Source: a virus. Taken from it: DNA of 20,573 bases. The notes under the pieces are model-generated. The model was not told the DNA's origin. It ran no database searches and saw only the letters and a list, made by a program, of their open reading frames with translations. Positions 3,851 through 20,573 of this stretch are shown piece by piece. The first letter of the stretch is position 1; each line of letters opens with the position of its first letter. The translations under genes and the position numbers were made by a program. Location: the IMG/VR virus record IMGVR_UViG_3300023245_000129, positions 1 to 20,573 of that record. One strand, given 5' to 3'.

Positions 3851-4081
3851 TTATTCTACGAATCGTTTATATCTCCAAAGGCGTTTTTCATCACTGTCTG
3901 CTGCCCAGCACCGCCGTTTCTTTCGAACTCCTGCTGTCGGGTGGTTACAGTTATCCCTAGCATTTGTATAGCGTATATTGGGATTATTATGAAATGCGAA
4001 ATGCTTACAGTTAAGACAGTTTTTTCTTATGTCGGGTGGCATACGTAAACTATCCCAAAACGATTGTTTATCGTCATTCAT
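3851..4081 (-). CDS. Small Cys/His-rich protein
   Basis: A 76-residue protein with Cys22-x2-Cys25, Cys45-x-His47 and Cys58, a spacing that suggests one bound zinc ion; the C-terminal third is basic (VRKKRRC, KRLWRYKRF). It shares the FWxSLR and CxNC layout with the partial gene at the left edge. Its ATG overlaps the end of the repeat gene at 4074 by 8 bp (ATGAATGA), so it is the last gene of a repeat-protein operon, and the uvsE promoter follows directly. The recurring pairing of a repeat protein followed by this Cys-rich protein at two places suggests a linked job. Function unknown. Confidence 0.65.
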   Translation of the reverse strand: MNDDKQSFWDSLRMPPDIRKNCLNCKHFAFHNNPNIRYTNARDNCNHPTAGVRKKRRCWAADSDEKRLWRYKRFVE

Positions 4082-4325
4082 GTTTCATTCTCCACCAAAA
4101 TGCTTCCTGTTCAGTCAATACGTCTTCCATAGTAACTTGTATGCCATTCAAACACCAGCCATTGGTGCCATCTACACGTACAACGGCAGGTCCATCTGTT
4201 CTATGTAGTTTGCCATTAATATACCAATGTTTGCTACCAGTTGGATATTCGATTGCTGGTCCATCTGTTCTATGACGTTTGCCATTAATATACCAAAACT
4301 TGGCACCAGTTGGATATTCAGTCAT
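4074..4325 (-). CDS. MORN_2/YwqK-like repeat protein (2 units)
   Basis: An 83-residue paralogue starting MTEYPTGAKFWYING, with two HRTDGPA units and a divergent tail VTMEDVLTEQEAFWWRMKHE. The ATG overlaps the stop of the seven-unit paralogue by 8 bp (ATGACTGA) and follows its TGGTGGACATTG sequence. It is more divergent from the first cluster than those genes are from one another, with PTG in place of ANG in the repeat turns. Role unknown. Confidence 0.7.
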   Translation of the reverse strand: MTEYPTGAKFWYINGKRHRTDGPAIEYPTGSKHWYINGKLHRTDGPAVVRVDGTNGWCLNGIQVTMEDVLTEQEAFWWRMKHE

Positions 4326-4923
4326 GTTTCAATGTCCACCAGAACTGTTCTTTTGGATCAGTGATTACGTCTTCCATATGAACGGAGAAACCATTCAAAT
4401 ACCAATACTTGTCGCCATTTGCCGCTTCGACGGCAGGTCCGTCTGTTCTATGACGTTCACCATTCAAATACCAATACATGTTGCCATATTCTTCAATGGC
4501 TGGTCCATCTTCTCTATGTCGTTCGTCATTCAAATACCAAGCTTTGGTGCCATTTGCATCTTCAACAGCAGGACCATCTACTCGATGTCGTTCGCCATTC
4601 AAGTACCAATATTTGTCGCCATGTGCAAATTCAATGGCAGGTCCATCTTCTCTATGTAGTTTACCATTAAAGTACCAAAACTTGTCGCCATTTGAATTTA
4701 CAATGGCAGGGCCATCAGTTCTATGACGTAAGCCATTAATATACCAATACTTGTCGCCATTTGCATATTCAATAGCTGGTCCGTCTGTTCTATGACGTTC
4801 ACCATTCAAATACCAATACTTGTCGCCATTTGCATATTCAATAGCTGGTCCGTCTGTTCTATGACGTTCACCATTCAAATACCAATATTTGCTACCATTT
4901 GCATCAAATCTTGGTTCAGTCAT
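4318..4923 (-). CDS. MORN_2/YwqK-like repeat protein (7 units)
   Basis: A 201-residue protein, the largest member of the family. After MTEPRFDANG it has seven HRxDGPA units (Thr, Thr, Thr, Glu, Val, Glu, Thr at x) in a 23-residue period, and then the tail MEDVITDPKEQFWWTLKHD. Two neighbouring units are almost identical at DNA level (about 4780-4880), a sign of recent repeat expansion. Its ATG overlaps the stop of a short degraded copy at 4916-5023. Regular Trp/Tyr, Asn-Gly turns and His-Arg pairs predict a stacked beta-hairpin sheet, with no catalytic motif. Probably a binding protein; the target is unknown. Confidence 0.75.
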   Translation of the reverse strand: MTEPRFDANGSKYWYLNGERHRTDGPAIEYANGDKYWYLNGERHRTDGPAIEYANGDKYWYINGLRHRTDGPAIVNSNGDKFWYFNGKLHREDGPAIEFAHGDKYWYLNGERHRVDGPAVEDANGTKAWYLNDERHREDGPAIEEYGNMYWYLNGERHRTDGPAVEAANGDKYWYLNGFSVHMEDVITDPKEQFWWTLKHD

Positions 4924-5382: not shown

Positions 5383-5462
5383 TTGACATATGGTGTGTAT
5401 ATGATATACTGGTATGATGCTTGAATTATGGATTTCAGAAGTTGGGTATCACTACCAGTATA
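5383..5462. promoter_or_regulatory. Convergent promoter module 4, minus half interrupted
   Basis: Plus: TTGACA (5383-5388), 16 bp, TATACT (5405-5410). The facing minus -10 TATACT is at 5457-5462, 46 bp away, followed by GGTAGTGATACC as in modules 1 and 2. Its spacer begins ACACGTTTTCA in plus orientation, but then runs into foreign sequence. The matching -35 box (TTGACT, 7637-7642) is 2.1 kb away beyond the mosaic block. The stretch 5281-5382 holds no gene that I can support. Confidence 0.55.
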
Positions 5463-5473
5463 ACACGTTTTCA
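5463..5473 (+). repeat. Left 11-bp direct repeat of the mosaic block
   Basis: ACACGTTTTCA, identical to 7621-7631. Both belong to the spacer of one repeated promoter. Taking out 5474-7631 would restore TTGACT, 16 bp, TATACT on the minus strand. Confidence 0.6.
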
Positions 5474-5682
5474 AGTACCCGAATGCCGTGTCTGCTGGGA
5501 TAAAGAACAGCATGGCATAGAAAGTCTTAGACACATCTACAACCAACAATTTCTTAATGATAAAATAATTCCGGATAGATTGGTTAAGAAGGCTGCTGTA
5601 ATGAATAAGATTGTTCATGCTGATATTAAAATTGGCAATACATGCAAAGTTGCATGTGCAATGTGCCATCCATGGCCACCAC
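5474..5682 (+). pseudogene. Internal fragment of a twitch-type radical SAM gene
   Basis: Plus-strand translation from PECRVCWDKEQHGIESLR to HADIKIGNTCKVACAMCHP lines up with residues 67-133 of the intact radical SAM protein at 17569-18792 (SECNNCWKKEEAG to CNFSCAMCNP). Both the auxiliary Cys pair and the CX3CX2C site are kept. Sequence before it is promoter repeat and after it the antisense of a helicase gene, so both ends of the gene are missing. The divergence from the intact copy shows it is not a recent local duplication but derives from a homologue. It cannot make an enzyme. Confidence 0.7.
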
Positions 5683-5683
5683 T

Positions 5684-6133
5684 GTTATAGTAATCATCAA
5701 TACGAGTCTTGGGATCATGGAAGTAATCTGTTCCCATGTCTCTGGTTAAACTAATTTGGACTGCGTCTTTAATTAGTTTCTCAACTGGATCATACTCGCC
5801 TTTCTCTAACATGTCTGCACTCTTAAGGATTGCACGTTCTAGTTCTTGTCGTTTTGTAAACCCTTCAAACTCTGCCATAAACCAATCGTTATGTCCATCC
5901 AGCATATCGGGGATAGGCTTTAACTCAACTCCAACGCTTGCCTTAACCATTTCATATGTAGGCAGTGTAGCATGCTTTGTGCTATGCTCTGCGATAAATG
6001 TTGCTGTGTCTTTAAGACTTCTATCAAAGTTTTCTGGATTAAAGATGTTTTGCACTCTGACATAGTTCTGTGCATCCTGCATCATCATTTCTAAGAATAG
6101 TTTTTGTAAATCCGGGGTGTATTCTTTACTCAT
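5684..6133 (-). pseudogene. Replicative DNA helicase (T4 gp41/DnaB-like), N-terminal domain only
   Basis: About 149 residues from MSKEYTPDLQKLFLEMM to TRIDDYYNSGG match the N-terminal helical domain of T4 gp41-type helicases. The frame then leaves the helicase where it should reach the Walker A region, and the last 20 residues of the open frame are antisense of the radical SAM fragment. Without the ATPase core it cannot unwind DNA. The ATG at 6133 overlaps the stop of the upstream ORF by 8 bp, showing that the two were natural neighbours before truncation. A full helicase gene presumably lies elsewhere in the genome. Confidence 0.65.
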
Positions 6134-6884
6134 AATATTCCTTTAACTCTTTACTGTTGGGAAAAGTGTTTAAAGCATAGCATTTAAGTTCAATTCCTTT
6201 TTGACTCAAGTGCCATTGTATCATCGCTTCATGTACTACGTCTTCACTTTCAATAATAGAAAATTTGCCTTCTCTATAGTTTATATAATTTTTCCAATCT
6301 TTCCAAATTTTATTTTGTCCCTGATGCCAAACATCGCACATTTTGTTAAACTTAATAATATCTGTAATATCACACTGTACACTTTTTATTACTAATAACA
6401 TTACTTCTTTTAAGTTTTTAAAAATATCCATGGTGTCAATACAGACAAATCCCAGTTGCTCTGCTCGATCCCACTGCTCTTTCATTTGTGGAATCCACCA
6501 CTCAAGCAATTGTAAACTAATGGCTTCTCGTTTTTCCCATTTTTCAAGTGCATCTATATTATTGTTCCAAGCAGCTAAGTCCAACCCCTCTATTGCTCGG
6601 GTAGAATATTTTGGAATTTTTTGCTGAGTAATCTTTGCAAACTCAGCTGAGTCATCAGTCTTGGGACCTAAATAAAATTTTATACCATGTTCTTTATTAA
6701 TATATTCAATTACCTCTATGCCTTTCATGTCCGGCATTGGAACAATAGGAGTAAAAATATTATCATCTGATTCAATATATTTCTTTTTAATTAACGCTTC
6801 CTTAGTTACTGGATGCCATTGTTTCTTAAAACCATGTGATGTAACTATGTCGTTGCCGGGTACAAAACTTAACCAAATATTCAT
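6126..6884 (-). CDS. Unknown 252-residue protein in the mosaic block
   Basis: I do not recognise this protein. It starts MNIWLSFVPGND (ATG at 6884, ATGA overlap with the stop of the radical SAM fragment; the longer frame to 6899 uses TTG and is less likely). It is rich in Trp, Lys and Ile, soluble-looking, with a central helical part (AAWNNNIDALEKWEKREA, LLEWWIPQMKEQWDRAE) and no membrane segment. It is the only intact gene in the block and is more AT-rich than its surroundings by eye. Its place, overlapping a radical SAM gene upstream and a helicase downstream, suggests an original operon; it may be a partner or substrate-related protein of the radical SAM enzyme. Confidence 0.55.
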   Translation of the reverse strand: MNIWLSFVPGNDIVTSHGFKKQWHPVTKEALIKKKYIESDDNIFTPIVPMPDMKGIEVIEYINKEHGIKFYLGPKTDDSAEFAKITQQKIPKYSTRAIEGLDLAAWNNNIDALEKWEKREAISLQLLEWWIPQMKEQWDRAEQLGFVCIDTMDIFKNLKEVMLLVIKSVQCDITDIIKFNKMCDVWHQGQNKIWKDWKNYINYREGKFSIIESEDVVHEAMIQWHLSQKGIELKCYALNTFPNSKELKEYYE

Positions 6885-7194: not shown

Positions 7195-7620
7195 TATTGG
7201 TAAGTGTAGCAACACCACCAATAGTTAAGGCGTCAATAATACCCTCACATACTATACTAAACTTTCCTCCTTGGGATTTGCCTGTCTATTCCGTAAACGT
7301 AGTTGCTCTCGTAATTATTAAAGTATTTAGGCTTAGTCTCGTTATCTGCGGCTCTTGCTGTTGATCCTATAACACGGCCCTGCCAAGTACAGGGAATAAT
7401 AATACGCTTATACATTCTAGCAGGTTTAGTGTCGCTCCACAATAACTCATTTACTGGCATCTTACGCTGTTGTGCATATTCCAGTAACTCTGCTGGGCCT
7501 TGTGTTAATGGCACACAATCTTGAGGTAGTTCACGCTCTGGAAACTCAATAGTAAACTCAGGTTCATCTATCTCCTCTTCAAGCACCACAGTATCTTTAA
7601 TGCGCAGCGCTTCAACTACT
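7195..7620 (-). pseudogene. DNA primase fragment, frameshifted
   Basis: The frame from about 7620 reads VVVEALRIKDTVVLEEE and then typical phage primase sequence: RIIIPCTWQGRVIG, STARAADNETKPKY and NNYESNYVYGIDRQ. It ends early at 7257 by frameshift, but the next frame continues GGKFSIVCEGIIDALTIGGVATL, a TOPRIM-like acidic motif (EG-x2-D). Both the zinc-binding N terminus and the remainder of the TOPRIM domain are missing. It starts exactly where the promoter spacer ends (7620/7621). Such primases work with gp41-type helicases, so both fragments may come from one donor phage. Confidence 0.6.
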
Positions 7621-8530: not shown

Positions 8531-8539
8531 TCAAGTCTG

Positions 8540-9440
8540 AGATTACGACTTGTAGTAGGTGTCTTTGGGCCGTACCGAACGATATCCCTATCGTTGTTAA
8601 TCCTTTATCCACTAAGTGCCTTGCGGCTTACCTAGTATCACCTAATGCTGCCTTGATTAAAGTGGTGGCGTTTCCACTGTCGCATTACACTACTCGTCCA
8701 TCTATCTTCCGCCTGTCTTGCGAACAGTTCAACTTTGCTAAAAGTTTACGTCTTCTTTTCGAACAATCACTCGCAGCCTTGGGAGCTTTGAGCAAACTAC
8801 ATTCACTTACGTGTGTAGTATTAAGCACCTTTAGTGCAATACCGGGACAGACTTTCCATTTGACAATGTTGGAATTGAACCAACGTTCGTCTGCTATGAA
8901 GGCAGATGTCTAACCATTCGACATATTGTAAATCACCATGATGTGCTGTCCCTGTTGCGTCATAACCTTTTGGGTTACAATATACAACACACCACCTGTT
9001 TTTCGGCTTGCGACCTAATAAACGTTTCTTCTGGTTTATGTCCCTCTTCAAAGAACGAGGTCCATCCACCGTTGAAATACCAACCGCCCTTCTACGCTAA
9101 TAGTCGGACTACTTTGATTACCTGTTAGTCAATCTTCGCTGAATAGGTTTGCATGTTATGGCGATGTTGCTGCATCTTTTGTCCTCATCGTTGACCAAGA
9201 CCATTTTATCCTTTCGGACCATACCCCTATCTTACCGTGTAACCCCTACCTTTCGATAGAAGTCCCGTCGCCGGGAGACTCAGGCTTGTTTAGATGGACC
9301 ATTACTGGCGATGCTATGTGATATATACATCTTTGGGTACGTTACCGCACTTATCCTTAATGGACGCTAAACCGCCCATTAACTCTATTCTATTTTCAAT
9401 CAGCGTTGCTACACTGTCTGTAGCGGCTTACTTATTCAAT
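8540..9440 (-). ncRNA. Large structured RNA rich in GNRA tetraloops (GOLLD/ROOL-like candidate)
   Basis: About 900 nt without a supported protein gene, preceded by a consensus promoter. On the minus strand, stem-loops closed by GNRA tetraloops follow each other: GTAA (9337-9350), GCGA (9263-9276), GAAA (9246-9259), GAAA (9209-9218), GCAA (8713-8727), GCAA (8618-8627) and GGGA (8578-8595). A 7-bp stem TTAATGG/CCATTAA is at 9357-9382. The tetraloops make sense only on this strand. A tRNA-like gene lies in the middle (8860-8931). Size, phage context and tRNA association recall the large ornate phage RNAs GOLLD and ROOL, but I cannot match a consensus by eye. Ends are approximate; the 3' end is set near a small AAGTC/GACTT hairpin. 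Confidence 0.6.
8860..8931 (-). tRNA. tRNA-like gene, anticodon position UCA
   Basis: A full cloverleaf can be drawn: acceptor 8925-8931 with 8861-8867 (one mismatch at 2-71), D stem GTC/GAC with GG in the loop, anticodon stem TCTGC/GCAGA, 5-nt variable region, T stem GTTGG/CCAAC with loop TTCAATT, and A73. CCA is not encoded. The 7-nt anticodon loop is CTTCATA, which puts UCA at 34-36, the reader of UGA, with an unusual U at 37. Apart from the loop, the body resembles tRNA-Glu, so it may be a suppressor, a degenerate tRNA-Glu or a structural tRNA-like domain of the surrounding RNA. Confidence 0.6.
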
Positions 9441-9446
9441 ATAACC

Positions 9447-9475
9447 ATTATACTATAACTAAATGGCTTTGTCAA
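9447..9475 (-). promoter_or_regulatory. Consensus promoter of the large RNA
   Basis: TTGACA (9470-9475), 17 bp, TATAAT (9447-9452): a perfect sigma70 consensus with ideal spacing. Transcription would start near 9440 and read through the structured region. Confidence 0.8.
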
Positions 9476-9480
9476 TAACT

Positions 9481-9517
9481 ATTTTCAAAAAACTTATTAT
9501 ATAAGTGCTTTGAAAAT
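9481..9517 (-). terminator. Intrinsic terminator of the 200-nt RNA
   Basis: On the minus strand ACTTAT/ATAAGT (9492-9506) forms a hairpin followed by a run of U (9487-9491); an outer ATTTTCAAA/TTTGAAAAT stem (9481-9489 with 9509-9517) encloses it. Confidence 0.6.
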
Positions 9518-9687
9518 GGACCGATGGCTGCGCCTTACATACGCTATCGGTCCCTAGCACATGGGTCTTAAAGTAGACCACACCGTTGATTCTTATCGAC
9601 CCTCAACGAACCCGTCCAAAATTAAAGTATTTGAAAAACTGCATCAGCTTTGTTTTGCCTCGGAATATCAGGGGTTCTTTATTTGAT
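9487..9687 (-). ncRNA. Independent ~200-nt RNA of unknown type
   Basis: Bounded by a perfect promoter (9694-9722) and an intrinsic terminator (9481-9517). It contains no ORF with a start and ribosome site. Visible stems on the minus strand are GGACCGAT/ATCGGTCC (about 9517-9552), GGTCT/AGACC with a 6-nt loop (about 9565-9580) and CGTTGA/TCAACG (about 9585-9609). It is not a tRNA and not a recognised riboswitch. Tandem position directly upstream of the large RNA's promoter suggests both form one RNA-expressing unit. Confidence 0.6.
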
Positions 9688-9693
9688 TTAACC

Positions 9694-9722
9694 ATTATAC
9701 TATATTGTTATGGCATTGTCAA
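9694..9722 (-). promoter_or_regulatory. Consensus promoter of the 200-nt RNA
   Basis: TTGACA (9717-9722), 17 bp, TATAAT (9694-9699). Identical in boxes, spacing and in the flanking ATAG-TATAAT-GGTTA to the promoter at 9447-9475, so the two may be a duplicated unit. Confidence 0.8.
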
Positions 9723-9730
9723 TCTAAAAT

Positions 9731-9851
9731 TTTAAAGAATGTTTTAGGTGGAAAAAAACTGTGCTACTTCACAGGAAAGCGAGCTGGTCTAAAACTATGG
9801 AACAACTAAACATAGGAGAGACTTACGCTCGCGCCTAAAACATTCTTTAAA
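9731..9851. repeat. 121-bp structured inverted repeat (18-bp perfect stem)
   Basis: TTTAAAGAATGTTTTAGG (9731-9748) is the exact reverse complement of 9834-9851. Inside are a CTGTG/CACAG hairpin, a GCGAGC/GCTCGC stem, then GTCT/AGAC and CTATG/CATAG nested within it. This is a regular multi-branched RNA-like structure, not a simple terminator. Strand is undecided. It ends 8 bp from the promoter at 9694-9722. Confidence 0.65.
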
Positions 9852-9875
9852 CTTTCAGTCTGTCAACAACTATCA

Positions 9876-9956
9876 TCATTTGATTTCTTCCTTAAATACG
9901 CACAAAGCAACGACACTAGATTCATTTTCATTGCCAGAGCCGACTTCAATGCGCAT
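9876..9956 (-). CDS. Possible 26-residue peptide
   Basis: ATG at 9956 follows AAGGA by 1-2 nt and reads MRIEVGSGNENESSVVALC, ending CVFKEEIK. An upstream in-frame ATG at 9995 would add 13 residues but has no ribosome site. Nothing recognised; coding is uncertain. Confidence 0.3.
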   Translation of the reverse strand: MRIEVGSGNENESSVVALCVFKEEIK

Positions 9957-10074
9957 TTCCTTAATTGATTGCGAACATACTTCATAGCTGGGCATCGTCG
10001 CATGCGGATTCGAACCGCTTCAAGGGGTTAACCTCTTATCTCCACGCCCTTCCCGGAAAGGGTCAGTCAATTCT

Positions 10075-10746: not shown

Positions 10747-10778
10747 GCTAGGTGATTCTGTTTCCAAGTTCACCTAGC
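10747..10778 (-). terminator. Hairpin at the 3' end of the tmRNA precursor
   Basis: GCTAGGTGA (10747-10755) pairs with TCACCTAGC (10770-10778). It follows the tag-coding piece. Only a short U run follows on the minus strand, so it may be a tmRNA stem or a processing signal instead. Confidence 0.4.
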
Positions 10779-11040
10779 GAAACTCATTTCCTACGAAGCA
10801 GGGCGAAAACCGTTAGGTTCAGGCTGCTACCGCCATAGGAACAAAATTGTCGTTAGACGCTTTTGCAATTGTTGTGTCGTTACGTTAACCCAGTTTCCAC
10901 GGGACAATCTCGGTATCGTTTTTACTGCATCAGTCGAACCTGTTTCACTCCCATCATAAGGACACCATATAATATCCTTATGGTGGAAGTGGTGGGTACT
11001 GCCCCCACGTATCTGAACTGCCTATTATACTAGCCTCAAA
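10747..11040 (-). ncRNA. ssrA: Circularly permuted two-piece tmRNA
   Basis: Read on the minus strand: first an acceptor piece with T stem GTGGG/CCCAC (10992-11008), acceptor strand CACTTCC and CCA end (10981-10991); then a 28-nt intervening loop with an ATAAGGA/TCCTTAT stem; then the mature 5' end GGGAGTG (10946-10952), which pairs with CACTTCC; then GGTTCGACTG, a tmRNA hallmark; then the tag frame, ending SNDNFVPMAVAA and TGA (10819-10857). This order, 3' piece before 5' piece, is the permuted form known from alphaproteobacteria, whose tags also often start ANDN and end AVAA. It would rescue stalled ribosomes and tag proteins for proteolysis. The T loop, GGCAGTA, is unusual. Ends are approximate. 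Confidence 0.88.
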
Positions 11041-11085
11041 CGATTGTATTCTTATTTAGTGTGTCATCTTATTGTTACCATGTGT

Positions 11086-11114
11086 ATTATACCACTATAT
11101 AACAGGAAAGTCAA
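11086..11114 (-). promoter_or_regulatory. Promoter of the tmRNA gene
   Basis: TTGACT (11109-11114), 17 bp, TATAAT (11086-11091). Start near 11079, about 70 nt before the T arm of the acceptor piece. Confidence 0.7.
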
Positions 11115-11151
11115 TTGTTTTATAATAAATAAGTATCTATTGATAAATGCG

Positions 11152-18798: not shown

Positions 18799-19890
18799 TC
18801 ATAGCATACATGCATCGCAATCTTCTGGGTCTTCTAACTCAGATAATGTATCAACTTCATCTTTTTTATCAAATGCATTTTCATCATATTCGCCTTGGCC
18901 ATCATTGGTATTGAAGTAATAAAGCGTCTTAATTCCCCACTTGTATGCCATAAGCAAATGTTTCAATAACTCACTCATCGGAATCTTTTCATCTTCGTAG
19001 AAGGCTGGATTGTAACTCGTGTTCGTTGAAATAGATTGGTCAATGTATTTCTGTAGCACTGCCATAATCTTTAGATAGCCTTCTGGTGATTTTTGATCCC
19101 ATAATAGTTCATACTTATTCTTTAGGCGTGGATACCCCGGCACAACTTGTTTCAACACACCATCCTTAGATTGTTTGACTGATACATACGAGCGCGGCGG
19201 TTCAATGCCGTTTGTGCTGTTGCTGATTTGCGATGAAGTCTCCGATGGCATAAGGGCCATTAATGTGGCATTACGAATGCCAGTATCTTTTAGTTGCTCG
19301 CGAAGTGCTTGCCACGGCATACGTTCAACATGCGGGACCAACTCATCAACCGTCTTCTTGTATGTGTCAATGGGCAGGATACCATCACTGTATCGGGTGT
19401 TTGCATTTAGTTTACATGCACCTTTTTCGGCAGCAAGGTCTGCGCTTGCTTTGATAAGATAGTAACTCCACGCTTCGGCATACTCGTCAATCAACTCCAA
19501 GTTTGGTTCAGAATATGATGAGTCGTGCTTGGCAAGGAAGTATGCTAGGTTGATGATCCCTACACCTAATGGTCTATAACCTTTTGAATGTAGTTCAGCA
19601 GCAAGCACTGGATACTTCTGGTAATCAAGTAATGCGTCTAGTCCACGCACCGCAAGTTCACAAGGACGCTTGAAGTCTGATGGTTCTTTAACATTTCCCC
19701 AATTCATAGCCGACAATGTACATAAAGCAATCAATCCATCCTCGTCTTTTAAATCTATAAGTGGCTTAGTTGGTAGGGCAATCTCTTGACAGTTATGAAC
19801 CAACACATCGTTAGCAAAAAAGTTTTCTGTGTCTTTTACTGTTATGTCGTATACGGCTTCTCGTTTTGCTAATTTAGTTACTTTTGCCAT
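18799..19890 (-). CDS. nrdA: NrdA C-terminal part with N-terminal C-intein
   Basis: A 363-residue protein. Residues 1-33 are a C-intein: YDITVKDTENFFANDVLVHN ends in the His-Asn of block G. Cys34 is the +1 residue and, by alignment with E. coli NrdA (SNLC-x-EIALPTKP), is the thiyl-radical cysteine, Cys439. Cys57 corresponds to Cys462 with the same 23-residue spacing. MPSETSSQISNSTNGIEPPR and the radical-transfer pair Tyr324-Tyr325 (TLYYFNT) are present. The C-terminal redox pair is Cys358-x2-Cys361, not the C-x4-C of E. coli. ATG at 19890 overlaps the upstream half by 17 bp in another frame and has AAGGA before it. Needs trans-splicing to be active. Confidence 0.9.
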   Translation of the reverse strand: MAKVTKLAKREAVYDITVKDTENFFANDVLVHNCQEIALPTKPLIDLKDEDGLIALCTLSAMNWGNVKEPSDFKRPCELAVRGLDALLDYQKYPVLAAELHSKGYRPLGVGIINLAYFLAKHDSSYSEPNLELIDEYAEAWSYYLIKASADLAAEKGACKLNANTRYSDGILPIDTYKKTVDELVPHVERMPWQALREQLKDTGIRNATLMALMPSETSSQISNSTNGIEPPRSYVSVKQSKDGVLKQVVPGYPRLKNKYELLWDQKSPEGYLKIMAVLQKYIDQSISTNTSYNPAFYEDEKIPMSELLKHLLMAYKWGIKTLYYFNTNDGQGEYDENAFDKKDEVDTLSELEDPEDCDACML

Positions 19891-20344
19891 TTATCATTCT
19901 TCCTTGTTTCCATCCAGTTTCTAAATGTTTATTCAACTTATCTTTATGAATTCTCTTGTTCTCATCGTCTTTAGTAACCCACGTATATTGCTTATTAGTA
20001 TCCGAGGCATATTTATCCTTTATGTCTAGAAATGACAATAGAACATCAGTTTCCGTTAATTCCCTAGCAGCAACATACCCTCTGTTTTCTGTCCAAAACA
20101 AATGATCGCCCGTGCAGACAACTGACTGCATACCATCATCTGTTTCAACCTTATAAAGCTCCGCGTCTGGATTCGTCATACCAAACGCAGTTATAGATTG
20201 AAACTCAACGGTATTTGTCTTGGTATTATATGACTTAACCAAAACTGTTTCATATTTCTTAATGAATTTATCTACTTCGTGAATTTCGATTGAAAAGATT
20301 TCATTATCACATTTTACCGTTATCTTAGTATCTGCTACCAGACA
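19792..20344 (-). other. Split intein in NrdA at the catalytic cysteine
   Basis: N-intein 19874-20344 and C-intein 19792-19890, in different frames and overlapping by 17 bp. Splicing would join Asn-Leu to Cys-Gln-Glu and restore the active-site motif. Split inteins in phage nrdA and gp41 genes are known from marine metagenomes ('fractured genes'), often with an endonuclease gene between the halves; here only the tail motif is left. Confidence 0.85.
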
Positions 20345-20573
20345 AAGATTACTCATACGCACTGCGGCTACATCTGGTTTGAATGATGAATGGTCGTTGA
20401 CGTTATCTACATTCATAAGATATATACGACCAGTATTCTTTCGTTCTTCCATAAATGCAGAGAACAGTTCTGATGCTTTTACACGTTTCTTGCGAATGTA
20501 GTTATTCTTTTCAGCACGTTCGTATAGTTCTTTGAACTTATCTTGATCATTAAAGAAGGATTCGAACGTGCTG
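19874..20573 (-). CDS. nrdA: NrdA N-terminal part fused to N-intein (partial at right edge)
   Basis: The frame enters from the right edge as NrdA (ASELFSAFMEERKNTGRIYL, NVDNVNDH) up to RMSNL, then becomes an intein: CLVADTKITV (block A, nucleophile Cys1) and VVCTGDHLFWT (block B, T-x2-H), with NRGYVAARELTETD after it. About 105 residues form the splicing domain. A tail of about 50 residues follows, with a WVT..ENKR....GWKQGR motif like the DNA-binding ends of phage homing endonucleases. It stops at 19874, so the large subunit is made as two proteins. The reductase part reduces NDPs to dNDPs with NrdB. An ATG at 20452 is internal, not the start. Confidence 0.88.
   Translation of the reverse strand, partial: STFESFFNDQDKFKELYERAEKNNYIRKKRVKASELFSAFMEERKNTGRIYLMNVDNVNDHSSFKPDVAAVRMSNLCLVADTKITVKCDNEIFSIEIHEVDKFIKKYETVLVKSYNTKTNTVEFQSITAFGMTNPDAELYKVETDDGMQSVVCTGDHLFWTENRGYVAARELTETDVLLSFLDIKDKYASDTNKQYTWVTKDDENKRIHKDKLNKHLETGWKQGRMINGKSN

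Follow-up and report, generated by a model that had tools for sequence, protein, structure and literature searches.

What kind of RNA is encoded by about 900 nucleotides of phage DNA, and what is a tRNA-like cloverleaf doing in its middle? The question is raised by a stretch of 20,573 nucleotides (IMG/VR virus record IMGVR_UViG_3300023245_000129, positions 1 to 20,573; hereafter the window), for which an earlier note, made from the sequence alone, had proposed a GOLLD RNA, a ROOL RNA, a relative of these or a new class. According to our analysis, it is GOLLD. The Rfam covariance-model search that the note had suggested was run for both classes: RF02032 matched the minus strand at 8534-8995 over all model positions 1-416 with 202.4 bits (gathering score 150), whereas ROOL had no match at gathering score in the window in the same Rfam scan. 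A ROOL RNA or a new class of giant RNA would be alike in size and setting, and against this whole-model match its probability is negligible. The minus strand from 8534 to 9440 thus encodes a GOLLD RNA of this phage, which falls into an established class. Its phage origin is indicated by the IMG/VR virus record itself and by PHROGs matches to ribonucleotide reductase small subunit and PAAR proteins, and three IMG/VR contigs that match the window with 99.9-100% identity over 13-14 kb carry the same GOLLD.

RF02032 covers only the conserved 3' half of GOLLD (the 3' domain, 8534-8995 in the window). The 5' domain (8996-9440, minus strand), which corresponds to the cap in the cryo-electron microscopy (cryo-EM) structure of the env-38 GOLLD, lies outside the Rfam model and was recognized by blastn matches to relatives and by covarying GNRA hairpins at 9345, 9305 and 9215. 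Among the blastn matches listed, this 5' part shares 70-80% identity over about 100 nucleotides with many of the 67 loci compared, the best of them being locus L106 (79.6% over 103 nucleotides), and among relatives it is kept as blocks together with the three hairpins. With the 5' end predicted from the promoter and the 3' end from the Rfam match, rather than mapped, the transcript would measure about 907 nucleotides; this large size (many GOLLDs exceed 800 nucleotides) and the less conserved 5' domain are both characteristic of GOLLD. The fold of the whole RNA is more stable than all of 20 shuffles (z = -4.09).

The features from which the earlier note had started largely withstood scrutiny. 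Its perfect promoter is a sigma-70-type TTGACA-17-TATAAT sequence at 9475-9447 on the minus strand that agrees with the consensus at 12 of 12 positions, and promoter-like hexamers are seen at a similar place in the relatives L473, L012 and L493 (alignment, by eye). The "at least seven" GNRA hairpins of one strand hold true for stems of at least 3 pairs, of which the minus strand has ten between 8534 and 9437 (six with stems of at least 4 pairs) and the plus strand none. Chance is a poor explanation, as had been claimed, since none of 300 dinucleotide shuffles reached these numbers (mean 1.55 and maximum 7 for stems of at least 3 pairs, mean 0.50 and maximum 4 for stems of at least 4). The predicted covariation of the stems was borne out for part of them only, when tested with alignments of 67 relatives for the 5' part and 77 for the 3' part and with 300 shuffles. 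Four of the ten hairpins covary strongly: those with loops at 9345, 9305, 9215 and 8810 keep 93-98% of their pairs, have changed on both sides of a pair in 167, 38, 22 and 67 cases (at most 72, 16, 12 and 28 in shuffles), and retain the GNRA loop sequence in 53/67, 52/67, 57/62 and 57/74 rows, respectively. Support is partial for hairpin 9271, with 47% paired as against at most 41% in shuffles, and for hairpin 8624 (71% as against 56%), and 9254, 8674, 8588 and 8770 were without support or hardly alignable among relatives. The claim that these 900 nucleotides hold no protein gene was upheld as well, as none of the four open reading frames tested (54-86 residues) matched a Pfam family at E 0.1; one gave two weak PHROGs matches (best E 0.025), and none showed a protein family above chance. 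Neither of the two outcomes that the earlier note had named as refuting its proposal was thus observed for the stems and reading frames tested.

The cloverleaf is likewise real. A tRNA-like domain at 8860-8931 on the minus strand, inside the RNA's 3' half, was found by ARAGORN (8859-8932, 74 nucleotides) and by the Rfam tRNA model (46.6 bits), with the anticodon UCA at 8899-8897. What the earlier note had missed is that this tRNA-like gene belongs to the GOLLD RNA, of which it forms the linker, and that it lacks the marks of an ordinary tRNA. In place of a 7-bp acceptor and a CCA end, it has the acceptor TTACAAT/ATTGTCA with pair 2 broken, and CCA is not encoded; its variable region has 5 nucleotides and position 37 is a U. 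In 16 related GOLLDs that we aligned, one common site, with a conserved hairpin on one side and a likewise conserved AAAG segment on the other, is occupied by a tRNA, by a tRNA in permuted form or by some shorter sequence. When the whole RNA or an isolated 116-nucleotide piece is folded, the minimum-energy structure encloses the linker of the window by a 7-bp helix of GGGACAG (8946-8952, 5' strand) and CUGUCCC (8844-8850, 3' strand), both on the minus strand, and the two strands are complementary in relatives such as L313 (alignment, by eye). To judge from its place in the 3' domain, this linker is probably the same as that of env-38, whose cryo-EM structure is a 14-mer cage with the linker (nucleotides 497-538) unresolved inside it (PMC12286853; this and the other papers cited by PMC number were covered in part). 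Specific contacts between the molecules, among them that of kissing loop L20 with J13/15, are a further mark of GOLLD. GOLLD genes frequently, although not by definition, lie near tRNA islands. On the 20.6-kb, 100-kb and 121-kb contigs of the window phage, which are possibly fragments, no other tRNA was found, the linker tRNA being the only one on the two longer contigs.

Could this domain read UGA codons? Its anticodon UCA would allow it, and ARAGORN labels it tRNA-SeC; tRNA finders thus report such domains as tRNAs, which is of relevance for annotation. That the domain acts in the window phage as a selenocysteine or suppressor tRNA and recodes UGA is nevertheless highly improbable. The tRNA for selenocysteine has long acceptor and variable arms, unlike the 74 nucleotides and the 5-nucleotide variable region found here, and U37 and the absent CCA also argue against a UGA-reading tRNA. 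UGA is moreover the stop of 10 of the 21 open reading frames listed for the window, including those of NrdA, UvdE, Hydrolase_2 and glutaredoxin. Since UGA ends these recognizable genes, no UGA recoding is seen in the open reading frames of the 20.6-kb window, and we rejected it for this phage.

In order to place the window domain in a wider context, linkers were compared across related GOLLDs. For this purpose, 19 window-like GOLLDs were selected, and the 16 that remained after L310, L286 and L285 had been dropped for want of a match to the 3'-end pattern were used to train a hidden Markov model (HMM) of the part of the 3' domain that lies downstream of the linker. Of 706 fetched loci searched with it, 128 matched at E < 1e-6, and requiring the model start and 60 bits left 84 distinct linkers. 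This set consists of window-like GOLLDs, with other GOLLDs hardly represented. Having D, anticodon and T arms was the filter condition by which 67 of the 84 were counted as tRNAs; the other 17 comprise two permuted linkers, three cut by contig ends (L514, L482, L021), three tRNA-like ones that failed the filter (L074, L617, L457) and nine without a cloverleaf. One further locus, L707, was added later and is counted only among what are then ten cloverleaf-less linkers. ARAGORN tRNAs on the same loci served as free tRNAs for comparison (691 analyzed of 761). The permissive pattern by which viral records were collected is diluted, with GOLLD recognized by Rfam in 16/40, 21/39 and 28/29 records in separate Rfam batches; L002, L007 and L008 were scanned by Rfam, and some further loci were identified by the 3'-domain HMM alone. 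On genome contigs, none of the 117 stretches found by a permissive 3'-end pattern was among the listed 3'-domain HMM matches, bacterial chromosomes being in effect unsampled. ARAGORN placed a tRNA inside the 3' domain in 12 of the 67 loci compared, three of them from the window phage, and in no locus with a 3' domain of 392-433 nucleotides (67-locus table, by eye). Cultured phages among the relatives that carry a linker tRNA are DSS3_MAL1, Phaeobacter phage MD18 and Sinorhizobium phage Phosso.

The linker tRNAs have lost their acceptor end. Counted from the first to the seventh, the acceptor pairs are present in 58, 24, 64, 94, 94, 93 and 96% of the 67 linker tRNAs, as compared with 94-99% in free tRNAs. 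A full 7-bp acceptor is present in 1/67 linker but 602/691 free tRNAs, and CCA is encoded in 3/67 and 653/691, respectively. Because ARAGORN prefers good acceptors, an acceptor-blind control was run with the same filter for both sets, and it agreed: full acceptors were found in 267/331 free and 1/29 linker tRNAs, and CCA in 316/331 and 2/29. Grouping at 80% 3'-domain identity left the full acceptor with 0.2 and CCA with 0.7 of 24 clusters. These counts speak against an ordinary tRNA gene within GOLLD whose product is cut out and serves translation, which we regard as very unlikely even though both ARAGORN and Rfam call a tRNA in the window and ACCA is encoded in L408 and L360. With its outer acceptor pairs and CCA gone, the domain is expected to take up no amino acid and to have no part in decoding; that it is non-decoding is in our estimate very probable.

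The remainder of the cloverleaf is kept. Among 64 distinct tRNA parts, both-side changes number 63 in the D stem, 128 in the anticodon stem, 74 in the T stem and 85 in acceptor pairs 4-7, all above the maxima of 500 shuffles (23, 56, 29 and 30). Pairing reaches 99% in the D, anticodon and T stems, the arms having also been a filter condition, whereas acceptor pairs 1-3 are 49% paired and thereby near shuffles (mean 40%, maximum 49%). This contrast bears on the possibility that tRNAs insert as passengers in a tolerant GOLLD loop and decay there without function. Such decay should strike every arm, which is at odds with the pattern of paired and compensated arms next to a degraded acceptor end. 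Nor do the linkers have a recent source in the tRNA arrays of their own contigs: the mean best identity to these was 0.617, compared with 0.623 for other contigs, and 0/50 exceeded 0.75. On the other hand, 9 of the 84 linkers lack a cloverleaf although they are complete, 7 of 67 linker tRNAs have anticodon loops of unusual length (six of 8 nucleotides and one of 6), and anticodons differ within clades of a 77-sequence tree of the 3' domain, as would be expected of decaying passengers. We consider this explanation unlikely, while allowing it some weight.

The anticodons of the linker tRNAs are biased as a group. CUU (16), UCU (11), UUU (7), UAG (5) and UGA (5) lead among the 67, followed by others. 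The Lys anticodons (CUU/UUU) and the Arg anticodon UCU together account for 34/67 linker but 38/691 free tRNAs (Fisher p 7e-21, relatedness uncorrected), and for 12.1 of 24 clusters after clustering. On the 3'-domain tree, in which support values were not considered, these anticodons reappear on branches that lie far apart. Even among the ten cloverleaf-less linkers, which were trimmed by hand and include several relatives of one another, a hairpin of 5 bp that closes a 7-nucleotide loop with U33 is still present in seven, where about 0.9 would be expected from summed shuffle probabilities. No excess of possible kissing interactions was seen between the anticodon loop and other parts of its own GOLLD (6-mers in 22/51, 22.1 with swapped loops).

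Two linkers, L473 and L077, contain tRNA halves in reversed order (by eye). The T arm, the 3' acceptor strand and ACCA come first, followed after 8-9 nucleotides by the 5' acceptor strand, the D arm and the anticodon arm, with AAGU/ACUU at the position of the variable arm (by eye). Their acceptors are perfect over 7 bp and differ by both-side changes (GGGGGAG/CTCCCCC and GGGGAGT/ACTCCCC). With RNAfold, L473 folds into the permuted cloverleaf, of which L077 forms only the T arm, the acceptor and the D stem. The two lie on different branches of the 77-sequence tree, and the L077 linker recurs in L701, a second IMG/VR contig with another sample number. A pattern search of the viral collection for a T arm near the left flank found L077, L701 and L473 as well as L106 and L707, the last two of which keep a T-arm-like and an anticodon-like hairpin and have no acceptor (by eye). 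Judging by titles, opening lines of abstracts and the text passages covered, we recognized no prior report of such permuted linker tRNAs in the literature on GOLLD, on permuted tRNAs and phages, and on RNA nanocages, with subscription papers mostly outside this coverage. The order of the halves is that of circularly permuted transfer-messenger RNA (tmRNA; RF04321), one of which the window phage has near its GOLLD, although the linker tRNA of the window is itself not permuted.

These cases raise the possibility that the domain is a processing signal, at which a cut by RNase P or RNase Z would produce a two-piece mature GOLLD held together by pairing, as in permuted tmRNA. With their perfect acceptors and ACCA, the two permuted linkers would give such two-piece RNAs (by eye), the permuted tmRNA adjoins GOLLD, and RNase P can make do with a T arm and the acceptor pairs stacked on it. 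In most linkers, however, the end at which cleavage would take place is disrupted. The 5' acceptor strand appears instead to pair on with the GOLLD flank, often as UUCGC/GCGAA and in one case as UUGCG/CGCAA; the best flank complementarity averages 4.31 bp, compared with 3.47 bp with swapped flanks (maximum 3.86 in 500 swaps). We therefore hold a processing signal to be improbable.

The explanation that we favor, with slightly more confidence than doubt, is that the GOLLD linker carries a caged, non-decoding tRNA mimic, whose probable partner would be a host protein that reads anticodons. A GOLLD of about 907 nucleotides would be transcribed from its own strong promoter on the minus strand and, by homology, its 5' cap and 3' ring domains would assemble into a hollow oligomer with the linker inside. 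In this lineage, the linker would have retained the D, anticodon and T arms and the four inner acceptor pairs and given up the outer pairs and CCA; the domain appears to keep what a reader of the anticodon arm would need and to lose what charging needs. The cage would then present many copies of the mimic to a host protein that recognizes tRNA by its anticodon arm, and the bound protein would be tied up during infection. An anticodon-reading protein as the target is a tentative proposal, with an anticodon nuclease as our first guess; the ribosome is an alternative partner, as ribosome pull-downs with GOLLD are cited in the covered part of the 2025 cryo-EM paper (PMC12286853). More speculatively still, one branch of GOLLD may be a family of caged tRNA mimics, in which tRNA bodies acquired on repeated occasions were domesticated by loss of their amino-acid end, some in circularly permuted form with GOLLD replacing the variable arm, and are kept because an anticodon-reading enzyme of the host binds the anticodon arm in the cage. 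Although its structure has been determined, the GOLLD cage is without a known function. If the linker is a non-decoding mimic with a biased anticodon, the content of the cage has a testable identity, and if the proposal is true, a giant phage RNA gains a function as an RNA-based decoy against tRNA-targeting defense.

Several observations weigh against this explanation. The isolated linker of the window prefers another fold (-30.8 kcal/mol) over the cloverleaf with extended stem (-24.9 kcal/mol), for which reason the extension of ACAAU/AUUGU by AUUU/AAAU with one bulged C is put forward as a suggestion only, and an 89-nucleotide linker piece is no more stable than its shuffles (z 0.15). The UCA anticodon of the window lies outside the Lys/Arg majority. 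On 20/45 contigs the linker tRNA has an anticodon in common with the free tRNAs, compared with 13.0 for swapped pairs, which is perhaps a lineage effect. The number of pair types in the tRNA stems is not above that of shuffles, the shuffles of the stem test leave relatedness in place, and the covariation may partly have been inherited through repeated capture of free tRNAs. More weight can be placed on the difference of the arms from the acceptor end, tempered by the use of the arms as filter. A 3' end could yet be generated by processing and the addition of CCA. Finally, the GOLLD of a Lactobacillus brevis prophage accumulates in lytic growth, yet is reported in the part of the study covered to be dispensable for phage production (PMC7567579). 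Any role may therefore be conditional; a conditional counter-defense would be compatible with such dispensability, which is no proof of it.

The proposal can be set beside known systems. A tRNA-shaped module within a non-coding RNA is found in bacterial Y RNA, which resembles the linker domain in its tRNA shape and is a different RNA in a different context. PrrC acts on tRNA-Lys, and the Lys anticodons of the linkers would fit such known anticodon nucleases. AriB of the PARIS system also cuts tRNA-Lys, to which phage T5 responds with a resistant tRNA-Lys, as described in the covered part of that study (PMC11455837). There, tRNA-Lys is the target, and Lys anticodons lead among the linkers. The T5 tRNA is a functional replacement, whereas the linker domains have no acceptor end, and therefore only a decoy role would fit them. 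Phage tRNAs are stated to occur sometimes in the GOLLD linker (PMC12286853), and a predicted pseudo-tRNA inside a mycobacterial GOLLD, whose separate expression was not detected, has been described in a paper that, in its covered part, credits the first description of GOLLD with the prediction of a tRNA gene within this RNA (PMC6582537). The window RNA is like the GOLLD of the cryo-EM work in its match to the whole 3' model, its phage origin, its own promoter, its variable 5' half and a linker at the interior disordered position (PMC12286853). What is new here is a comparative set of linker tRNAs without acceptor end, with biased anticodons and with two permuted cases: the loss of the acceptor end as a rule in one branch, the anticodon bias and the permutation were not met in the covered parts of the cryo-EM paper (PMC12286853), and the mycobacterial report, in the part covered, concerns a few mycobacteria as compared with 67 linkers with controls (PMC6582537).

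Upstream of GOLLD, on the same strand and not part of it, lies the circularly permuted tmRNA of the window (10747-11118, minus strand; RF04321 80.1 bits, RF01849 79.6 bits), the reading frame of which ends KASNDNFVPMAVAA-stop (by eye). It was missed by ARAGORN as run and found by Rfam. In the 67 loci compared, ARAGORN found a tmRNA near GOLLD in seven, including DSS3_MAL1, MD18 and, with two copies, XacN1. Besides the window, loci with a tmRNA near GOLLD are L276, L285/L289, L287, L288, L324 and L330; the tmRNAs of L276, L324 and L330 adjoin GOLLD, are non-permuted according to ARAGORN and have predicted tags that are long, with 23-24 residues.

Between GOLLD and the tmRNA, the minus strand at 9735-9860 folds strongly (z -4.57, 0/200 shuffles as good) with a 14-bp outer stem and is possibly another structured RNA. 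A second perfect promoter, which resembles that of GOLLD, is located at 9722-9694 on the minus strand. It is followed on that strand by a well-folding stretch at 9470-9710 (z -2.68, 1/200 shuffles as good) that ends near the GOLLD promoter. The region 9445-10000 had no match in the phage collection.

Elsewhere in the window, the large subunit of ribonucleotide reductase (18799-20452, minus strand) is interrupted by an intein-like splicing domain that extends across two open reading frames, with intein matches below the curated cut-off. The minus strand at 878-2284 and 4074-4923 encodes several similar proteins of WYLNGERHRTDGPA-type repeats that share the C-terminal segment MEDVITDPKE; one of these repeat proteins was tested and gave only a sub-threshold match to DUF6745. 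About 706 bp at 5684-6389 are present in the window and in L009 and absent from the otherwise 99.9% identical loci L011 and L002. Near this segment, open reading frames look like gene fragments, with a partial primase domain at 7257-7589 and a radical-SAM-like fragment on the other strand at 5421-5690 (by eye).
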